This document shows positions 6,453 to 55,551 of a stretch of 64,000 bases of DNA, piece after piece. Source of the stretch: Burkholderia sp. Bp8992 (lineage in GTDB: Bacteria; Pseudomonadota; Gammaproteobacteria; Burkholderiales; Burkholderiaceae); assembly GCF_003853705.1 (NCBI RefSeq), contig NZ_QTQI01000005.1, forward strand, positions 1 through 64,000, written 5' to 3'. Position numbers and translations under genes: made by a program. The notes beneath the pieces are model-generated. The model saw nothing but the letters and a program-made list of their open reading frames with translations. It made no database searches and was not told the DNA's origin. Within the stretch, counting starts at the first letter, position 1; each line of letters begins with the position of its first letter.

Positions 6453-6548
6453 CGCCGTGCTGCGCGAACGTTGCGCGATGTCGCGCCACGTTCGCGCCCG
6501 GCGGCATAGAATCGTGACATGACCCTTGAACGATGGCGGAGGTAGACG

Positions 6549-6800
6549 ATGACGACCGACAACCGGCCCGACGACGGCGAGCACAAGCTCGAGAATCTGG
6601 AAGCGGCGGTCGACCACCTGCACAAGTCGATCGAATCGCAGAGCATCGCGGTCGGCGCGGCGAAGGGCATCCTGTTCAGCCTGATCGAAACGCTCGGCGC
6701 ACTGATCGGCGATCCCGATCTTCCCGAGCATGCGCGTTCGGGCTACGAAGCGCTGCGCGACAAGGCGAGCGAATTGCGCGGCGGGCTCGACCGGCATTGA
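6549..6800 (+). CDS. Small conserved hypothetical protein (83 aa)
   Basis: An 83-residue acidic, helical protein follows the glucosidase by 96 bp and begins after GGAGGT. It contains a hydrophobic stretch (GAAKGILFSLIETLGALIG, about residues 36-54) flanked by charged helices, which may be amphipathic rather than membrane-spanning. I recognise no family. Strong ribosome site and normal codon use support it as a real gene. It is the last gene before the first cluster of 66-bp elements. Confidence 0.65.
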   Translation: MTTDNRPDDGEHKLENLEAAVDHLHKSIESQSIAVGAAKGILFSLIETLGALIGDPDLPEHARSGYEALRDKASELRGGLDRH

Positions 6801-6856
6801 TGCATTGCTTGCGCCGGCGCTGCCCGATTCTGCAGATGAAGCACAAAACCCCGTGC

Positions 6857-6922
6857 GCTCAATGAGTTAGGTGGGCGCTGCGCAGGATATCCACAAGCTT
6901 GCCAACATAATCTGTGGAGAAC
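6857..6922 (+). repeat. 66-bp DnaA-box-like element, copy 1
   Basis: First of nine collinear copies. It carries ATATCCACA at element positions 31-39, GCTTGCCAACA at 41-51 and TGTGGAGAA at 57-65. The left tip is degenerate (GCTCAATGAGTTAG). Confidence 0.85.
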
Positions 6923-7040
6923 CGGCCGGCCTTTCGGTCACGCGTGCGGTGCGTGCCCGGAGGTCGTCCGGTATGCGTCGAATGCCCTTCCGGTGCCACA
7001 CCATTGACCGCTCAAGGTCCGGATGTCGAATACCCTTGTG

Positions 7041-7106
7041 TATCAAGATGTTACGCGCCGGATCTGACGGATATCCACAGGCTTGCCAACAAAATCTGTG
7101 GACAAC
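7041..7106 (+). repeat. 66-bp DnaA-box-like element, copy 2
   Basis: The most diverged left arm of the family (TATCAAGATGTTAC). The right half is fully conserved with ATATCCACA, GCTTGCCAACA and TGTGGACAA in register. Confidence 0.85.
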
Positions 7107-7217
7107 TCGCAATCGATTGCGTCGCACTGGTTGAGTATCGGGCCCGAATGCGACAGGCGTGCGAAGCCCCTGCACAAAGGCTGCCCGATGCGTGTACCGG
7201 AAAGCAAATGCGTGCAC

Positions 7218-7283
7218 GATCAAGGGCTTGGATCCTGGGTGCCCAGGATATCCACATCCTTGCCAACATTTTCTGTGGACAAG
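7218..7283 (+). repeat. 66-bp DnaA-box-like element, copy 3
   Basis: Left arm GATCAAGGGCTTGG; ATATCCACA and TGTGGACAA in register; the middle block reads CCTTGCCAACA. It ends 10 bp before the stop codon of penR, so it sits in that gene's 3' flank. Confidence 0.9.
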
Positions 7284-7293
7284 CGAGGCTGCG

Positions 7294-8184
7294 TTACGCG
7301 TCCGGCGTCGTGCCGGCCGCCTCGGCCACGATCCAGTCGCGAAAGAGCGTCATTGCCGGCGTCAGCGGTTTCGATTTCAGCGACGTGAGCCAGTAACCGC
7401 CCGCGCACACGTCGATATCGAGCGGCCGTGCGAGCAGGCCGAGCTGCAGTTCGCGCGCGAACATGCAGGCCGGCGCGAGCGCGACTCCCGCACCCTGCAT
7501 CGCGGCCTCGACCATCAGCCGCGACGAATCGAACACGGGCCCGTTGACCGCCCATGGCTCGAGCTGCGCGGCGTCGAACCAGCCGTGCCATTCGTCGGTG
7601 CGGTACGAGCGCAGCAGCGTTTCATTGGCGAGATCGGCCGGCTGCGCGAGGCGCCGCGCGATTTCCGGCGTGCACAGCGCGGTGAGCGGCGCATCGAGCA
7701 GCGGCTCGTTGCGGGTCGCCGGCCAGTTGCCTTCGCCGAAACGGATCGCGAAGTCGAGACCCTCGGCCGCCAGGTCGACGACGTTGTTGTTGGTGCGCAG
7801 CCGCAGCTCGACGAACGGGTGCGTATCGCCGAATTGCTTCAGTCGCGGCATTAGCCAGCCTAGGGCAAAGGTGCCGACGACACCGAGCGTCAGCACCTCG
7901 CGGAAGCGCCCGCCGTCGAACTGCTTGAGCACCGTCTCGATGCGGCTGAACGCGTCGCTCAGCACGGGCAGCAGCGCGCGCCCTTCGTCGGTGAGCCCGA
8001 GGCCGCGCGGCAGCCGTGTAAACAGCGTGCAGCCGAGCCGTTCCTCGAGCGAGCGCACCTGCTGGCTGACCGCGGCCTGGGTCACGCTCAACTCGAGGCC
8101 GGCGCGCGTGAAGTTCAGGTGGCGCGCCGACGATTCGAACGCGCGCAACGCATTGAGCGGAAGATGAGGGCGGAGCTTGGTCAT
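7294..8184 (-). CDS. penR: LysR-type regulator of the adjacent beta-lactamase (PenR/AmpR-like)
   Basis: The 296-residue protein has an N-terminal winged helix (about 8-66, with SVTQAAVSQQVRSLE as recognition region) and a LysR effector domain. It is transcribed divergently from a class A beta-lactamase 127 bp away, the arrangement of penR-penA in Burkholderia and of ampR-bla elsewhere. In those systems the regulator responds to peptidoglycan fragments and activates the lactamase; that role here is inferred from homology and position. The N-terminus also resembles GcvA, so the name rests on context. Start ATG 8184 gives full length. Confidence 0.82.
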   Translation of the reverse strand: MTKLRPHLPLNALRAFESSARHLNFTRAGLELSVTQAAVSQQVRSLEERLGCTLFTRLPRGLGLTDEGRALLPVLSDAFSRIETVLKQFDGGRFREVLTLGVVGTFALGWLMPRLKQFGDTHPFVELRLRTNNNVVDLAAEGLDFAIRFGEGNWPATRNEPLLDAPLTALCTPEIARRLAQPADLANETLLRSYRTDEWHGWFDAAQLEPWAVNGPVFDSSRLMVEAAMQGAGVALAPACMFARELQLGLLARPLDIDVCAGGYWLTSLKSKPLTPAMTLFRDWIVAEAAGTTPDA

Positions 8185-8215
8185 AAGAATTTCTTTTGTC
8201 AGCGCTCAATTATCG

Positions 8216-8248
8216 TTGCTTGTCAGGCAACCGTAAAGTCTCGATAGT
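8216..8248 (+). promoter_or_regulatory. LysR-box dyad and putative penA promoter
   Basis: TTGC-N7-GCAA at 8216-8230 is a 15-bp dyad fitting the LysR T-N11-A rule and lies between the divergent start codons. A possible promoter overlaps it: TTGTCA (8220-8225), 17-bp spacer, GATAGT (8243-8248). Such overlap would suit activation by the bound regulator. Confidence 0.5.
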
Positions 8249-8311
8249 GCTGTCTCGGCGGCCGGCCGTTTCAACCTCGATTCGTCGCCATTCCACCACG
8301 AGACAACCGAC

Positions 8312-9247
8312 ATGACCTACTCATCGAAACGTCGAACCCTGTTGCTGGCCGCCGCGACGGCGCCGGTCGTTCTCACCGCCACCGCGTGCGCATTGCGGCA
8401 GGCCACGGCGCCGGATGCGGCCAGTCAGGCAGCGGCGGCTGCGGACGCCGTGGCGCCCGCGGCTGCCGGGGCGGCGCTTGCCGATCTCGAGCGCGACGCG
8501 GGCGGCCGTCTCGGCGTGTACGCGATCGACACCGCGCGCGGCCGCGTCGTCGAACATCGCTCGGGCGAGCGATTCCCGTTCTGCAGTACGTTCAAGGCGA
8601 TGCTGAGCGCGGCGGTGCTGGCGCAGAGCGTCGATCGCCCGGGCCTGCTGCAACAGCACGTCACGTATACGCAGGCCGACCTCGTCAACTATTCGCCGGT
8701 GTCCGGGAAGCATGTCGGCACGGGCATGACGGTCGCCGCACTGTGCGAGGCCGCGATCCAGTACAGCGACAACTCGGCTGCGAACCTGCTGATGAAGCTG
8801 ATCGGCGGCCCGTCCGCCGTAACCGCGTTCGCGCGCTCGATCGGCGACGACGCGTTCCGGCTCGATCGATGGGAGACCGAACTGAATACCGCGTTGCCGG
8901 GCGACCCGCGCGACACGACGACGCCCGCCGCGATGGCCGCGAGCATGCGCGTGCTCACGCTCGGCGAGGCGCTGCCGGCCGCGCAGCGTGCGCAGCTCGT
9001 CACCTGGCTGCGCGGCAACAAGGTCGGCGACAAGCGGATTCGTGCAGGCGTGCCGGCCGGGTGGACGGTCGGCGACAAGACGGGAACCGGCGACTACGGG
9101 ACGACGAACGATGCCGGCGTCATCTGGCCGGCGTCGGGCGCGCCGATCGTGCTGGTCGTGTACTACACGCAGGCGCAAGCCGATGCGCGGGCGAAGGACG
9201 ACGTGATCGCGTCGGTCGCGCGCATCGTCGCGCAGACGTTCGGTTGA
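8312..9247 (+). CDS. penA: Class A beta-lactamase (PenA family)
   Basis: The 311-residue serine beta-lactamase has every class A landmark: STFK at 92-95 (catalytic Ser92), SDN at 152-154, the omega-loop glutamate E188 in ETELN, and KTG at 256-258. The N-terminus [15 protein letters not shown] with a following cysteine (Cys26) looks like a twin-arginine and possibly lipoprotein signal, as reported for PenA of related Burkholderia; residues 27-55 are an Ala-rich linker. It would hydrolyse penicillins and some cephalosporins in the periplasm. A cysteine directly precedes the catalytic serine, but Gly occupies the position of the partner cysteine of disulfide-bridged carbapenemases. Regulation is expected from the divergent LysR gene. 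Confidence 0.93.
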
Positions 9248-9251
9248 ACGG

Positions 9252-9297
9252 TGCGGTGCGGCGTGCGCGGCGCGATCCGCATGCACGCCGTGCCGCA
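9252..9297 (+). terminator. Stem-loop after penA
   Basis: An interrupted long inverted repeat, TGCGG-tg-CGGCGTGC (9252-9266) against GCACGCCG-tg-CCGCA (9283-9297), starts 4 bp past the penA stop. No U-tract follows, so it may stabilise the 3' end or act with Rho. Confidence 0.5.
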
Positions 9298-9326
9298 GTC
9301 GTGACCCGCGTGACCAAACGTTGTGC

Positions 9327-9392
9327 GATCAACGACTTAGGTCACGCATGCTCAGGATATCCACATGCTTGCCAACAAAAATTGTGGACAAG
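9327..9392 (+). repeat. 66-bp DnaA-box-like element, copy 4
   Basis: Left arm GATCAACGACTTAG; ATATCCACA, GCTTGCCAACA and TGTGGACAA in register. This copy has ATTGTGG instead of TCTGTGG before the right box. Confidence 0.9.
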
Positions 9393-9465
9393 CCAGCGTG
9401 CGGCCGCGTTCGCCATCGCGCGCGCCGCCGTGCCGCGTTTGAAGCGGCGCGGACAAAGTCTTTCG

Positions 9466-9531
9466 GATCAAGCGCTTGGCTGCGGTATGCGCAGGCTATC
9501 CACACGCTTGCCAACAAAATCTGTGGACAAG
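9466..9531 (+). repeat. 66-bp DnaA-box-like element, copy 5
   Basis: Left arm contains the perfect palindrome CAAGCGCTTG; the left box reads CTATCCACA. With its upstream flank (from about 9429) it is nearly identical to copy 6, 172 bp further on. Confidence 0.9.
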
Positions 9532-9637
9532 CAAGTCGACCGGCACGGCAGGCGGCGTGTCACGCCACGGGCGGGTGCGCAACCGGCGATTTGCCGCGCG
9601 CGTGCCCCATTCGAAGCGGCGCGGACAAAGTCTTTCG

Positions 9638-9703
9638 GATCAAGCGCTTGGTCGCGGTATGCGCAGGCTATCCACATGCTTGCCAACACAATCTGTGGAC
9701 AAG
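9638..9703 (+). repeat. 66-bp DnaA-box-like element, copy 6
   Basis: Near-identical to copy 5 over about 103 bp including upstream flank (9601-9703 against 9429-9531), which points to a recent local duplication. Confidence 0.9.
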
Positions 9704-9726
9704 CCCGCGGGCCGTCGCCGCGATGT

Positions 9727-9927
9727 TCAGCGCTGCCGATCGTCGACCGTGGGCCAGCGCGCGAACGCGAACACCCACAGCATGATGAAGTTCAGGATCG
9801 GGACGAACATCGTCAGGATCCACCAGCCCGAATGTCCGGTGCGCCGGACGATGCGGACGTACGGATAGACGACGATGGCGACGAGCACGAGCGAGACGAG
9901 CAACTGCCACGCGGTGAAGTGTTCCAT
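9727..9927 (-). CDS. Small membrane protein (66 aa)
   Basis: A 66-residue protein starting MEHFTAWQLL after AGGAAG. It has two hydrophobic segments (about 8-24 and 35-55) separated by a basic loop (RIVRRTGHSG), giving a two-helix inner-membrane hairpin. The GWW-x12-NF pattern (about residues 33-48) resembles small DUF805-like or phospholipase-D nuclease N-terminal-like membrane proteins, but I do not assign a family. It lies between repeat clusters 2 and 3; the element copy 6 ends 23 bp past its stop codon. Confidence 0.65.
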   Translation of the reverse strand: MEHFTAWQLLVSLVLVAIVVYPYVRIVRRTGHSGWWILTMFVPILNFIMLWVFAFARWPTVDDRQR

Positions 9928-10128
9928 GGTCTTCCTCGGGGTGATGTGTCGTGGTGCGGCGCGACGCCGCCGATGCGCGGCCGCGTGCGGCTCGCATGAT
10001 CTTGATGCGTGACGTGCACGGGCGTCAAGGCGCGGGCGGCGTGTTGCCGTTGCGCCGGATCGTCCGCTTTCGCACGCGCTTGCGCCGCGTGTTGCCGAAA
10101 CGGTGACGCCGCGCATGAATGGCAAGCC

Positions 10129-10194
10129 GATCAACGGGTTAGCGCATGCTTGCGCAGGATATCCACAAGCTTGCCAACACAATCTGTGGGTAAG
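10129..10194 (+). repeat. 66-bp DnaA-box-like element, copy 7
   Basis: Left arm GATCAACGGGTTAG; ATATCCACA and GCTTGCCAACA conserved; the right box is degenerate (TGTGGGTAA). Confidence 0.88.
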
Positions 10195-10334
10195 TGGCGC
10201 GGCAGCCGGCCCGCACGCGTGCGGCGGTCGCGGCGTGCATCCGTCGTGGCGTCGTGATGCGAACCGAGGCGAAGCGGGGCGTGCAACGGCCAGCGCCCGG
10301 GCCGCGTCTGCATCACGCGTGCCAAAGTCCATCG

Positions 10335-10400
10335 GATCAAGGGTTTAGCGTCGCGGTGCGCAGGATATCCACAAGCTTGCCAACATTTTCTGTGGAGAAG
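10335..10400 (+). repeat. 66-bp DnaA-box-like element, copy 8
   Basis: Left arm GATCAAGGGTTTAG; ATATCCACA, GCTTGCCAACA and TGTGGAGAA in register. It lies directly downstream of an antisense gene remnant at 10458-10607. Confidence 0.9.
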
Positions 10401-10457
10401 TCCGCGTTCGCGATGACGGTGGATGCCACGCGCTGCCACGTTTCGCACGCGCACTTG

Positions 10458-10607
10458 CGCGGTGCAGATCACGAATTCCGCATCGTCTTTCCACTCGGTG
10501 AGAAAGCCGGCTTTGTCCGCAGGGGCGAGCGTGAACACGTTGACACGCACGACGGCTCCGCGTCGATCGCAATCTGTTTGGTGGATCGAAAAGGAAGGAT
10601 CCATCGG
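10458..10607 (-). pseudogene. Remnant of an antibiotic-biosynthesis-monooxygenase (ABM) domain gene
   Basis: About 50 codons starting MDPSFS contain RVNVFTLAPADKAGFLTEWK, which matches the opening of small ABM-fold proteins (typically an xINVFT strand followed by a helix ending in W). Resemblance stops after DAEFVICTAQ, and the frame then runs through unrelated sequence into repeat copy 8. The rest of the domain is missing, so I read this as a decayed gene. Domain identification is by eye. Confidence 0.4.
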
Positions 10608-10725
10608 CTGCGACGGATCATGCATGACGGTTGAATCGGGTGCGTGGCTGACCGCGTGCGGTGCATCGCGCACCGGATCGCCGCCGCGCGGCGCATTTGC
10701 CGCGCATGCGCGACAAACGCTTTCC

Positions 10726-10791
10726 GATCAAGGGCTTGGTGCCGTTAATGGACGGTTGTCCACAAGCTTGCCAACATATTCTGTGGAAAAG
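10726..10791 (+). repeat. 66-bp DnaA-box-like element, copy 9
   Basis: Left arm GATCAAGGGCTTGG; the left box here is TTGTCCACA, making both halves of this copy the same 9-mer type. It ends 19 bp before the stop codon of the sensor kinase gene. Confidence 0.9.
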
Positions 10792-10809
10792 CCGCCCATC
10801 ACGCGCGCA

Positions 10810-12192
10810 TCAGACCGGTGCGGGAAACCGCACCGTGACGGTCAGCCCGCGCCCGCCCTGCGTGGTGCCGAGCGCGACCGTCGCGCGGTGCTGTTCGGCG
10901 ATCCGCTTGACGATCGACAGCCCGAGCCCGCTGCCTGACGACGTGACGGCCTGCGCGCCTTCGCCGCGATAGAAGCGTTCCCACACGTCGTTGCGTTCGG
11001 CTTCCGGGATCCCGGGGCCGTCGTCGGCGACTTCGAGCACGGGCGTCGTGCCGTCGACGCGAGCGGACACGTCGACACGCGCGCCGTTGCCCGCATAGCG
11101 GATCGCATTGTCGACGAGGTTGTTCAGCAGCACGCGCAGCGTGTCGACGTTGCCTGCCGCCATCACGGGCGCGGCGACGATCGCGCCGAGATCGATTTGG
11201 TGCGCGTCGGCGACGCGTGCGCGGTCCGATACCACCGACCGGCACAGCGCGGCGAGATCGACGGGCGTCGACGCCGACGCCGACGCGGCCGCCTGCGCAT
11301 CGGGTTCGAGGCGCGCGAGCGTCAGCAGCTGCTCGGCGAGGTGGCCGAGGCGCGTCGTGCCCGCCTGGATCTGCGCGAGGATGCGCTCGCGCTCCTCCGC
11401 GGTCGCCGCGCGCCGCAGCAGCTGCGACTGGATCGACAGCCCCATGATCGGCGTGCGCAATTCGTGCGCGGCATCGGCGATGAAGTGCCGCTGCAGCGTG
11501 AACGAGCGGTCGAGCCGCGTGAGCAGGTCGTTGATCGCTTCCGCTAGCGGGCGAACCTCGTTCGGCATCGACGCGACGTCGACCGGTTCGAGGTTGTTCG
11601 CATTCCTGCGTTTCAGGCCCGATGCGATCGTGCGCAGCGGCCGCAGCCCCGCGCCGATGCCGAACCACAGGCCGATGGCCAGCAGCGGCAGCATCGAGAA
11701 CACCGGCCACAGCAGGTGCACGGCGATGGCGGCGATCGCTTCCCAGCGCGCATGTCGCGCCTGCGCGAGCCGGATCGTCGTGCCGCCGCGTTCCGTCACA
11801 TAGGTGCGCCACGGCTGGCCGCCGACATCGACGCTCGCGATGCCCTTCTGCGCGGGCGGCGGCAGCTTCGAATCGCGGTCGGTCGAATACACCAGCGAGC
11901 CGTTGCGCCAGACCTGCAGCAGCACCGCGTCGGGGTCGCTTGCCTCGAAGCCGTGCTTGCCGTTCGCGTGGTCGCTGAACGACAGCTCGCCGTTCGGGCC
12001 GACGACGATTTGCTTCGACATGCTGCGCATCTGGTCGTCGAGCAGGTCGTCGAGTTCGCGCAGCGCGCCCCAGTAGGTGCCCGCGCTCGCGACCAGGCCG
12101 ATCACGCACGCGGCCGGCAGCAGCCAGGTCAGCAGGCGCCGCCGCAGCGACGCGTTGCGCCAGTGCGCGATCGCGCGTTGCACGTGCGTCAT
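10810..12192 (-). CDS. qseC: Sensor histidine kinase (QseC-like)
   Basis: The 460-residue inner-membrane kinase has two transmembrane helices (about 20-42 and 155-180) flanking a periplasmic sensor region, a short HAMP-like segment, a dimerisation domain with phospho-acceptor His243 in AAHELRTP, and an ATPase domain with the N-box NNLVDNAIRYA (about 357-367) and glycine-rich G boxes near 400-430. Its start overlaps the stop of the response regulator gene by 4 bp, so the two are translationally coupled. Similarity of layout and the neighbouring ygiW gene suggest the QseBC branch; the signal sensed is not visible. Confidence 0.85.
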   Translation of the reverse strand: MTHVQRAIAHWRNASLRRRLLTWLLPAACVIGLVASAGTYWGALRELDDLLDDQMRSMSKQIVVGPNGELSFSDHANGKHGFEASDPDAVLLQVWRNGSLVYSTDRDSKLPPPAQKGIASVDVGGQPWRTYVTERGGTTIRLAQARHARWEAIAAIAVHLLWPVFSMLPLLAIGLWFGIGAGLRPLRTIASGLKRRNANNLEPVDVASMPNEVRPLAEAINDLLTRLDRSFTLQRHFIADAAHELRTPIMGLSIQSQLLRRAATAEERERILAQIQAGTTRLGHLAEQLLTLARLEPDAQAAASASASTPVDLAALCRSVVSDRARVADAHQIDLGAIVAAPVMAAGNVDTLRVLLNNLVDNAIRYAGNGARVDVSARVDGTTPVLEVADDGPGIPEAERNDVWERFYRGEGAQAVTSSGSGLGLSIVKRIAEQHRATVALGTTQGGRGLTVTVRFPAPV

Positions 12193-55370: not shown

Positions 55371-55551
55371 TATAGTGCAGTTCATGGCGCGACGAAAAGT
55401 GCGCGCAACGATTCCGCTTCCGACGCACATATGTCCATGGCACGCAGGAAGCGAATCCTGGATTCTCAACCCCCATCGGGAATTCAGGAGCCCTGAGCGG
55501 ACATCCATGCGGCTGTGCACCGGCCCCGAGTGGATGTCCGCTGATTTTTTT
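55371..55551 (+). ncRNA. Candidate orphan small RNA
   Basis: Between the divergent start of ycaQ and the 3' end of the MFS gene lies a plus-strand unit with a TATAGT -10-like box (55371-55376) and no supported ORF. It has a stem CCTGGATTC (55457-55465) against GAATTCAGG (55480-55488) with a 14-nt C-rich loop, and an intrinsic terminator. Predicted RNA is roughly 170 nt from about 55383. A TTGACA at 55344 is 21 bp from the -10, longer than optimal, so the promoter is uncertain. Confidence 0.55.
55496..55551 (+). terminator. Strong intrinsic terminator of the candidate sRNA
   Basis: AGCGGACATCCA (55496-55507) pairs perfectly with TGGATGTCCGCT (55531-55542), followed by GA and seven T (55545-55551). 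The T-run is on the plus strand only, so it does not serve the minus-strand MFS gene. Confidence 0.85.

Follow-up and report, generated by a model that had tools for sequence, protein, structure and literature searches.

Nine intergenic elements in Burkholderia with predicted DnaA and IHF sites and the box geometry of the E. coli DARS cores

The 64,000-nt stretch of Burkholderia sp. Bp8992 analysed here (the window; positions 1 to 64,000 of contig NZ_QTQI01000005.1) carries nine copies of a short element that we predict to be a site for the initiator DnaA and for integration host factor (IHF). All nine are on the plus strand, in three intergenic gaps around a pair of genes encoding a LysR-type regulator and a beta-lactamase, which we take to be of class A (Table 1). 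The first gap lies between the converging ends of the LysR gene and of a short gene of 83 aa, the second between those of the beta-lactamase and a small DUF805-like gene, and the third gap runs from the start of the DUF805-like gene to the end of a sensor kinase gene.

Table 1. Elements of the array, parts of element 5 and neighbouring genes, in window coordinates
Feature	Position	Strand	Basis
Element 1	6846..6921	+	A-tract, IHF-type site, boxes III-II-I; R2 59.6 bits
Element 2	7030..7105	+	R2 54.8 bits
Element 3	7207..7282	+	R2 55.1 bits
Element 4	9316..9391	+	R2 59.1 bits
Element 5	9455..9530	+	R2 62.7 bits
Element 6	9627..9702	+	R2 59.7 bits
Element 7	10118..10193	+	R2 54.8 bits
Element 8	10324..10399	+	R2 54.8 bits
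Element 9	10715..10790	+	R2 55.8 bits
A-tract of element 5	9455..9457	+	columns 1-3 of logo; same offset in all copies
IHF-type site of element 5, GATCAAGCGCTTG	9466..9478	+	offset +11 to +23 in all copies
DnaA box III of element 5, CTATCCACA	9496..9504	+	offset +41 to +49
Box II of element 5, TTGCCAACA, non-canonical	9508..9516	+	offset +53 to +61
DnaA box I of element 5, TTGTCCACA on - strand	9522..9530	-	offset +67 to +75
LysR-type regulator gene, neighbour	7294..8184	-	Pfam HTH_1, LysR_substrate; synteny
Beta-lactamase gene, neighbour	8312..9247	+	Pfam Beta-lactamase2; synteny

A first, sequence-only reading of the window had claimed nine copies on one strand without indels, and both the core-pattern scan and the alignment, in which all copies keep an ungapped register, bear this out. 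It had given the element a length of 66 bp; the fixed register stands, and the left boundary does not, because the A-tract lies 11 bp further left, bringing the length to ~76 bp. The pair of inverted DnaA-box-like 9-mers that it described is present, with a third box between them, inside the invariant GCTTGCCAACA, that had been overlooked; the left arm GATCAAnnnnTTrG is likewise a true motif, whose likeness to the IHF consensus had been missed. A tenth copy was not found on either strand of the window by the core pattern (up to 7 mismatches) or by a weight-matrix scan, and the weak minus-strand matches overlap elements 4-6 themselves. The string CTTGCCAACA occurs 9 times with at most one mismatch, compared to 1.73 times expected in shuffles (shuffle maximum 5). 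When DnaA boxes with at most one mismatch to TTWTNCACA were paired, plus strand then minus strand, with any spacer of 0-60 allowed, the spacer was 17 in 9/9 pairs of the window. In an 80-column frame with the same starts as the elements, 33/80 columns are invariant among the nine copies; pairwise identity is 0.89-1.0 for the IHF core and the three boxes, 0.385 for the spacer and 0.335-0.363 for the flanks. Element 6 is probably a later duplicate, since it lies inside a 121-nt stretch that is 88% identical to its counterpart at element 5.

The whole element reads, from left to right, A-tract, IHF-type gATCAAnnnnTTR, 17 bp, box III, 3 bp, box II, 5 bp and inverted box I. Copies from the window and from loci L010-L060 were pooled (284, of which 282 have full flanks), leaving 264 unique copies for a sequence logo and, once a weak Caballeronia match was removed, 263 for the counts that follow; these counts are not independent, because the copies are related by descent. 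Columns 1-3 of the logo are AAA, followed by a loose CTTT block; gATCAA-N4-TTR occupies columns 12-24 and, after a variable spacer, box III columns 42-50, box II columns 54-62 and inverted box I columns 68-76, with the 3 bp and 5 bp between them. From passages of PMC8682772 and PMC4245941 we took the consensus sequences TT[A/T]TNCACA for DnaA and TAAnnnnTTGATW (reverse complement) for IHF. With at most one mismatch allowed, 226/263 copies match the IHF consensus WATCAANNNNTTR, the usual mismatch being the first letter of the site, which is mostly G. Box III has at most one mismatch to TTWTNCACA in 255/263 copies and is perfect in 2/263 (mean 1.03 mismatches), reading ATATCCACA in 179/263 and CTATCCACA in 53/263. 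Box I stays within one mismatch in 261/263 and is perfect in 41/263; on its own strand it reads TTGTCCACA in 132 copies, TTCTCCACA in 53, TTACCCACA in 29, TTTTCCACA in 23 and TTATCCACA in 18. The middle box is nearly invariant (TTGCCAACA in 260/263) and carries three mismatches to the DnaA consensus in 261/263 copies, with two or fewer in 1/263. Concerning the proteins, the DNA-binding domain of DnaA is conserved between Burkholderia and E. coli, and genes for Hda and IHF-alpha were found above the curated cut-off in 4/4 Burkholderia genomes.

The constraint on these columns had first been attributed to either a protein-DNA complex or a folded RNA. A repeated small RNA, or another RNA-structured element, could use the 6-bp stem that TCCACA and TGTGGA are able to form. 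Against it, the fold z-scores of the nine copies range from +0.67 to -1.59, no pair changed on both sides in alignments of 27 and of 60 rows, pairing in the 60 rows was no better than in shuffled ones, and the Rfam search gave no match to the elements. We therefore give hardly any credence to an RNA, and the fold scores and the absent covariation favour the protein-DNA complex.

The element was then compared with the DnaA-reactivating sequences (DARS) of E. coli, using 200 kb of the 4.64 Mb genome, that is, four 50-kb stretches chosen for DARS2, DARS1, oriC with dnaA, and datA. The location of datA is assumed. Map positions of DARS1 and DARS2 appear in a section of a review (PMC5742627), which also states that in DARS box I runs opposite to the other two boxes, with equal spacing at both sites. 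In the DARS1 core (L063) 5 bp separate box I, TTATCCACT, from box II, and 3 bp separate box II from box III; the DARS2 core (L062 2136-2170) has the DARS1 spacers with one mismatch per box, and its placement is confirmed by deletion-primer letters printed in a part of PMC4585315. Box order, orientation and the 9-5-9-3-9 spacing of the Burkholderia element are those of both cores. With the limit set at E 10, the profile R2, built from 60 Burkholderiaceae copies only, had two matches in the 200 kb. One is the DARS2 core (E 0.0029) and the other the DARS1 core (E 0.007), while oriC, dnaA and datA gave none. With at most 4 mismatches in all, the 3/5 geometry was moreover the commonest of 208 spacer combinations in these 200 kb; its two sites are DARS1 and DARS2, whereas the other 207 combinations average 0.09 sites and never exceed 1. 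A second, poorer 3/5-geometry match, with 5 mismatches, lies in the DARS2 stretch (L062 2452).

DARS2 is also like the element in having IHF sites on the box III side. A passage of PMC4245941 places its IHF-binding sites, IBS1 and IBS2, 3 bp apart between the core and the Fis sites. Two IHF-consensus matches, with one mismatch each, occur at L062 2229-2241 and 2245-2257, and we assign them as IBS1 and IBS2 because the layout fits that description; the nearer one, IBS1 by our assignment, has the same orientation as the Burkholderia site. Both DARS2 and the Burkholderia elements are intergenic and lie between origin and terminus. They differ in that DARS2 has a strong box II and a single copy, whereas Burkholderia has a weak box II, a 17-bp IHF gap and 6-9 clustered copies on chromosome 2. 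DARS1 shares the core geometry, with 2 mismatches in all, and is matched by the Burkholderiaceae profile; unlike the array it is single copy, and its bioD-uvrB gap holds no IHF-consensus match with at most one mismatch.

How far the element extends was followed by pattern and profile searches. The nearest genome (G001) has 9 pattern matches at one locus. The exact-pattern scan of genome contigs returned 52 stretches, 48 of them in Burkholderia, one in Caballeronia and three elsewhere; the latter, single matches in Ruminococcus, Novosphingobium and Actinobacteria, were rejected as chance, the first-pass matrix finding no copy and R2 no full-length match in them. A Novosphingobium genome gave one partial R2 match (E 3.3e-5). 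With profile R1 at E up to 0.01, 146/200 sampled genomes of the family and 16/25 genera have a match. The 23 genomes of the same genus among those listed have 5-12 matches each (10-12 in 21/23, 5-6 in the other two), and among the matches listed for other genera copies are dispersed, with 1 to 12 per genome. R2 at E up to 0.001 matched 227/300 genomes of the order and 109/143 sampled for the class, mostly with 1-4 copies among the matches listed, counts that rest on rough E-values. A profile search of Burkholderia genomes had been proposed in the sequence-only reading, with a REP-like (repetitive extragenic palindromic) or mobile repeat as the alternative to be weighed; 5-12 matches per genome at few loci, in three complete genomes mostly clustered on chromosome 2, agree with a clustered family, and such a repeat, for which hundreds of copies would be expected, is not supported. 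The palindromic GC-rich repeats near penA of B. pseudomallei, which a passage of PMC12326997 gives as ~16 bp long and tied to gene amplification, were set aside by description alone.

For other genera, 46 rows were read at fixed columns; they come from 11 genomes belonging to 8 genera, and gaps made 1 or 2 rows per box unreadable. In these copies box I has at most one mismatch in 44/44 readable rows, 18 of them perfect, and box III in 37/45, 9 of them perfect. Box II has 0-1 mismatches in 2/45 rows, 2 in 20/45 and 3 in 23/45. Perfect boxes I and III are thus commoner, and box II nearer to the consensus, in other genera than in Burkholderia. Outside Burkholderia the spacing is not completely constant, since some other-genus copies (L145, L147, L138, L168) carry small indels around the spacer that separates the IHF-type site from the boxes. 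Perfect inverted box pairs with a spacer of 5-35 were found in 37/200 genomes of the order, at 41 sites, 22 of which have spacer 5. At the 20 of these 22 sites that were fetched, box III (at most 2 mismatches) lies exactly 3 bp off in 11, six of them within one mismatch, and is absent in 9. At 7/11 sites TTA or TTG precedes box III by exactly 20 bp, as in Burkholderia, compared to a background of 4.3% in those loci. Seven perfect inverted pairs with an 18-bp spacer occur in other families of the order (for example G316 C4 129394-129429) and are possibly origins.

Three complete Burkholderia genomes allowed the copies to be placed on chromosomes. G164 and G112 each have 9 on chromosome 2 and 1 on chromosome 1, G085 has 6 and 3, and all three have one partial match near parB2; at one chromosome-2 locus lie 9/11 matches in G164, 9/11 in G112 and 6/10 in G085. 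The ninth element of G164 is ~10.6 kb away from the other eight (L227, C2 1158000-1175000), as though the array had been split by inserted DNA, and on chromosome 1 of G085 three elements stand in tandem (L132 285-638) where G164 and G112 have one. Taking parB2 as proxy for ori2 and dnaA for oriC1, and assuming the terminus opposite the origin, the chromosome-2 array is at ~0.85 of 1.50 Mb from the origin in G164, 0.74 of 1.50 Mb in G112 and 0.86 of 1.38 Mb in G085, and the chromosome-1 copies at ~78%, 75% and 82% of the arm, respectively. Under the same assumption the elements are oriented along fork movement on both chromosomes of the three genomes, which do not amount to three independent events, since the loci are probably orthologous. 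A DARS-geometry trio of boxes stands near parB2 on chromosome 2, 3.4-4.8 kb from it (L133 217-261; L134 223-269, minus strand; L135 226-269); its boxes are near perfect, with a total of 1 mismatch in G164 and in G085, it has no IHF-type site, and in G164 it lies upstream of an FMN-reductase (flavin mononucleotide reductase) gene.

The 6-9 copies on chromosome 2 of these three genomes would also fit a site for an unrelated protein, such as a centromere or a RepA or crtS-like site licensing chromosome 2, the likeness to DnaA boxes being secondary, and the near-invariant middle box looks stricter than a normal weak DnaA box. We find this highly improbable, as chromosome 1 and single-contig genomes have copies as well, and the agreement of boxes I and III with the DnaA consensus extends to other genera.

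Gene order was compared by searching 32 loci, 24 of them array loci, with seven genes of the window (tblastn); many of the loci are cut at their ends. In 24/24 array loci the genes found follow the order debranching enzyme, short gene, LysR, beta-lactamase, DUF805-like, kinase, response regulator, with the elements between them, and by this synteny the window would lie on chromosome 2. The position of all copies in intergenic gaps, beside the LysR/beta-lactamase pair and a two-component system, with the third gap upstream of the small DUF805-like gene, may suggest that DnaA/IHF complexes regulate the adjoining genes. The other two gaps, however, lie between converging gene ends; the promoter and terminator scan found nothing at the elements, and the sigma-70-like matches at 6500-11000 are only in the LysR/beta-lactamase gap, which holds no element. 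Copies are also present at loci from which the two genes seem to be missing: L136 combines six elements with the short gene and the kinase, tblastn giving no beta-lactamase or LysR match, and L012 has five elements, no beta-lactamase match and a LysR match of 27% only (its kinase side is outside the stretch), while in other genera the copies are at other loci. Transcriptional control is therefore very unlikely in our opinion. Elsewhere in the window, an Rfam match of 196 bits marks ncS035, a Burkholderia small RNA family, at 55384-55551 (plus strand).

From the predicted sites and the comparison with E. coli, we consider it on balance probable that the elements are DnaA/IHF sites working as a DARS-like array for the reactivation of ADP-DnaA. 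As for membership of the DARS class, they agree with it in core geometry, profile and IHF consensus, and depart from it in the distance of the IHF site. Several observations weigh against this interpretation. The gap from the IHF-type site to box III is 17 bp in Burkholderia versus ~58 bp in DARS2 (from IBS1 as assigned by us), the 41-bp difference corresponding to about four helical turns if a turn takes 10.5 bp. Box II has 0-1 mismatches in the DARS cores versus 3 here, fixed as TTGCCAACA; this weak invariant box is the least explained feature of the element, and it may be an ATP-DnaA-specific weak site or the site of another protein. Because of box II, the best four window copies, with 4, 5, 5 and 5 mismatches, score nearer to the best datA match (6) than to DARS1 (2) or DARS2 (3). 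Box III is hardly better in other genera than in Burkholderia (mean mismatches ~0.98 versus 1.03), many matches of the class search span the box core alone, and IHF is doubtful beyond the family because the copies with TTA at the expected position there lack ATCAA.

The weak invariant box II is also what would be expected of a site filled cooperatively by ATP-DnaA, and it leads to the main rival, a datA-like or titration array, at which mainly ATP-DnaA would be bound and either soaked up or have its ATP hydrolysis promoted, delaying initiation. Such an array would profit from 27 box positions within 4 kb, and datA likewise combines IHF with a cluster of DnaA boxes, as described in parts of PMC5742627 and PMC4245941. 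In contrast to the DARS cores, the datA region has no profile match and a best 3/5-geometry match of 6 mismatches, a comparison made with the profile and geometry of the element on datA; furthermore, the element shares its exact 5/3 spacers with DARS, and such strict spacing would be needless for plain titration. We thus regard a datA-like array as rather unlikely. The sequence-only reading, which had suggested a DnaA-titrating, datA-like or replication-timing locus, holds at the level of the sequence for replication control and for the DnaA boxes, whereas its datA-like part is weakened, as it is the DARS cores that share the three-box geometry and are matched by the profile.

If the elements form a DARS-like array, each copy would be a DnaA/IHF nucleoprotein site with the build of a DARS core and an attached IHF site, in which the strong boxes I and III face each other over the weak box II in the order and spacing of DARS. 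IHF would bind the adjoining site, bend the DNA and aid the assembly of several DnaA molecules on the three boxes; by analogy with DARS1 and DARS2, this assembly would loosen ADP from DnaA, which could be recharged with ATP to restart replication. The chromosome-2 array would set much of the reactivation capacity of the cell, and double it once its arm has been copied. A further and more speculative step, which we hold to be unlikely, is that the array is a device by which chromosome 2 times chromosome 1: copying of the mid-arm locus would double DnaA-reactivation capacity in one step, and chromosome 1 would re-initiate only once chromosome 2 is about half copied. Such a device would be the mirror image of Vibrio crtS, with DnaA reactivation replacing the RctB switch. 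As portrayed in part of a review, crtS is similarly noncoding and tied to timing between two chromosomes, with a putative DnaA box and GATC sites; unlike the array, it is on chromosome 1 and works via RctB, the comparison here being by description only.

Concerning previous work, a passage of PMC8682772 restricts the DARS2 core to those gamma-proteobacteria that are relatives of E. coli, while a section of the review PMC5742627 describes DARS2, together with its IHF and Fis sites, as conserved among beta- or gamma-proteobacteria proximal to E. coli; in that section, therefore, the presence of DARS2 in some beta-proteobacteria is already stated in print. In full-text searches of open-access literature, the papers listed, judged by titles and the beginnings of abstracts, gave no account of such an array, of its number of copies or of a Burkholderia form. 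The array hints at a role in the timing of DNA replication. If our interpretation is true, a DARS-type core with an IHF-type site would be present across the Burkholderiales and amplified to nine copies on a secondary chromosome, and it would offer a handle on how bacteria with several chromosomes share one initiator.

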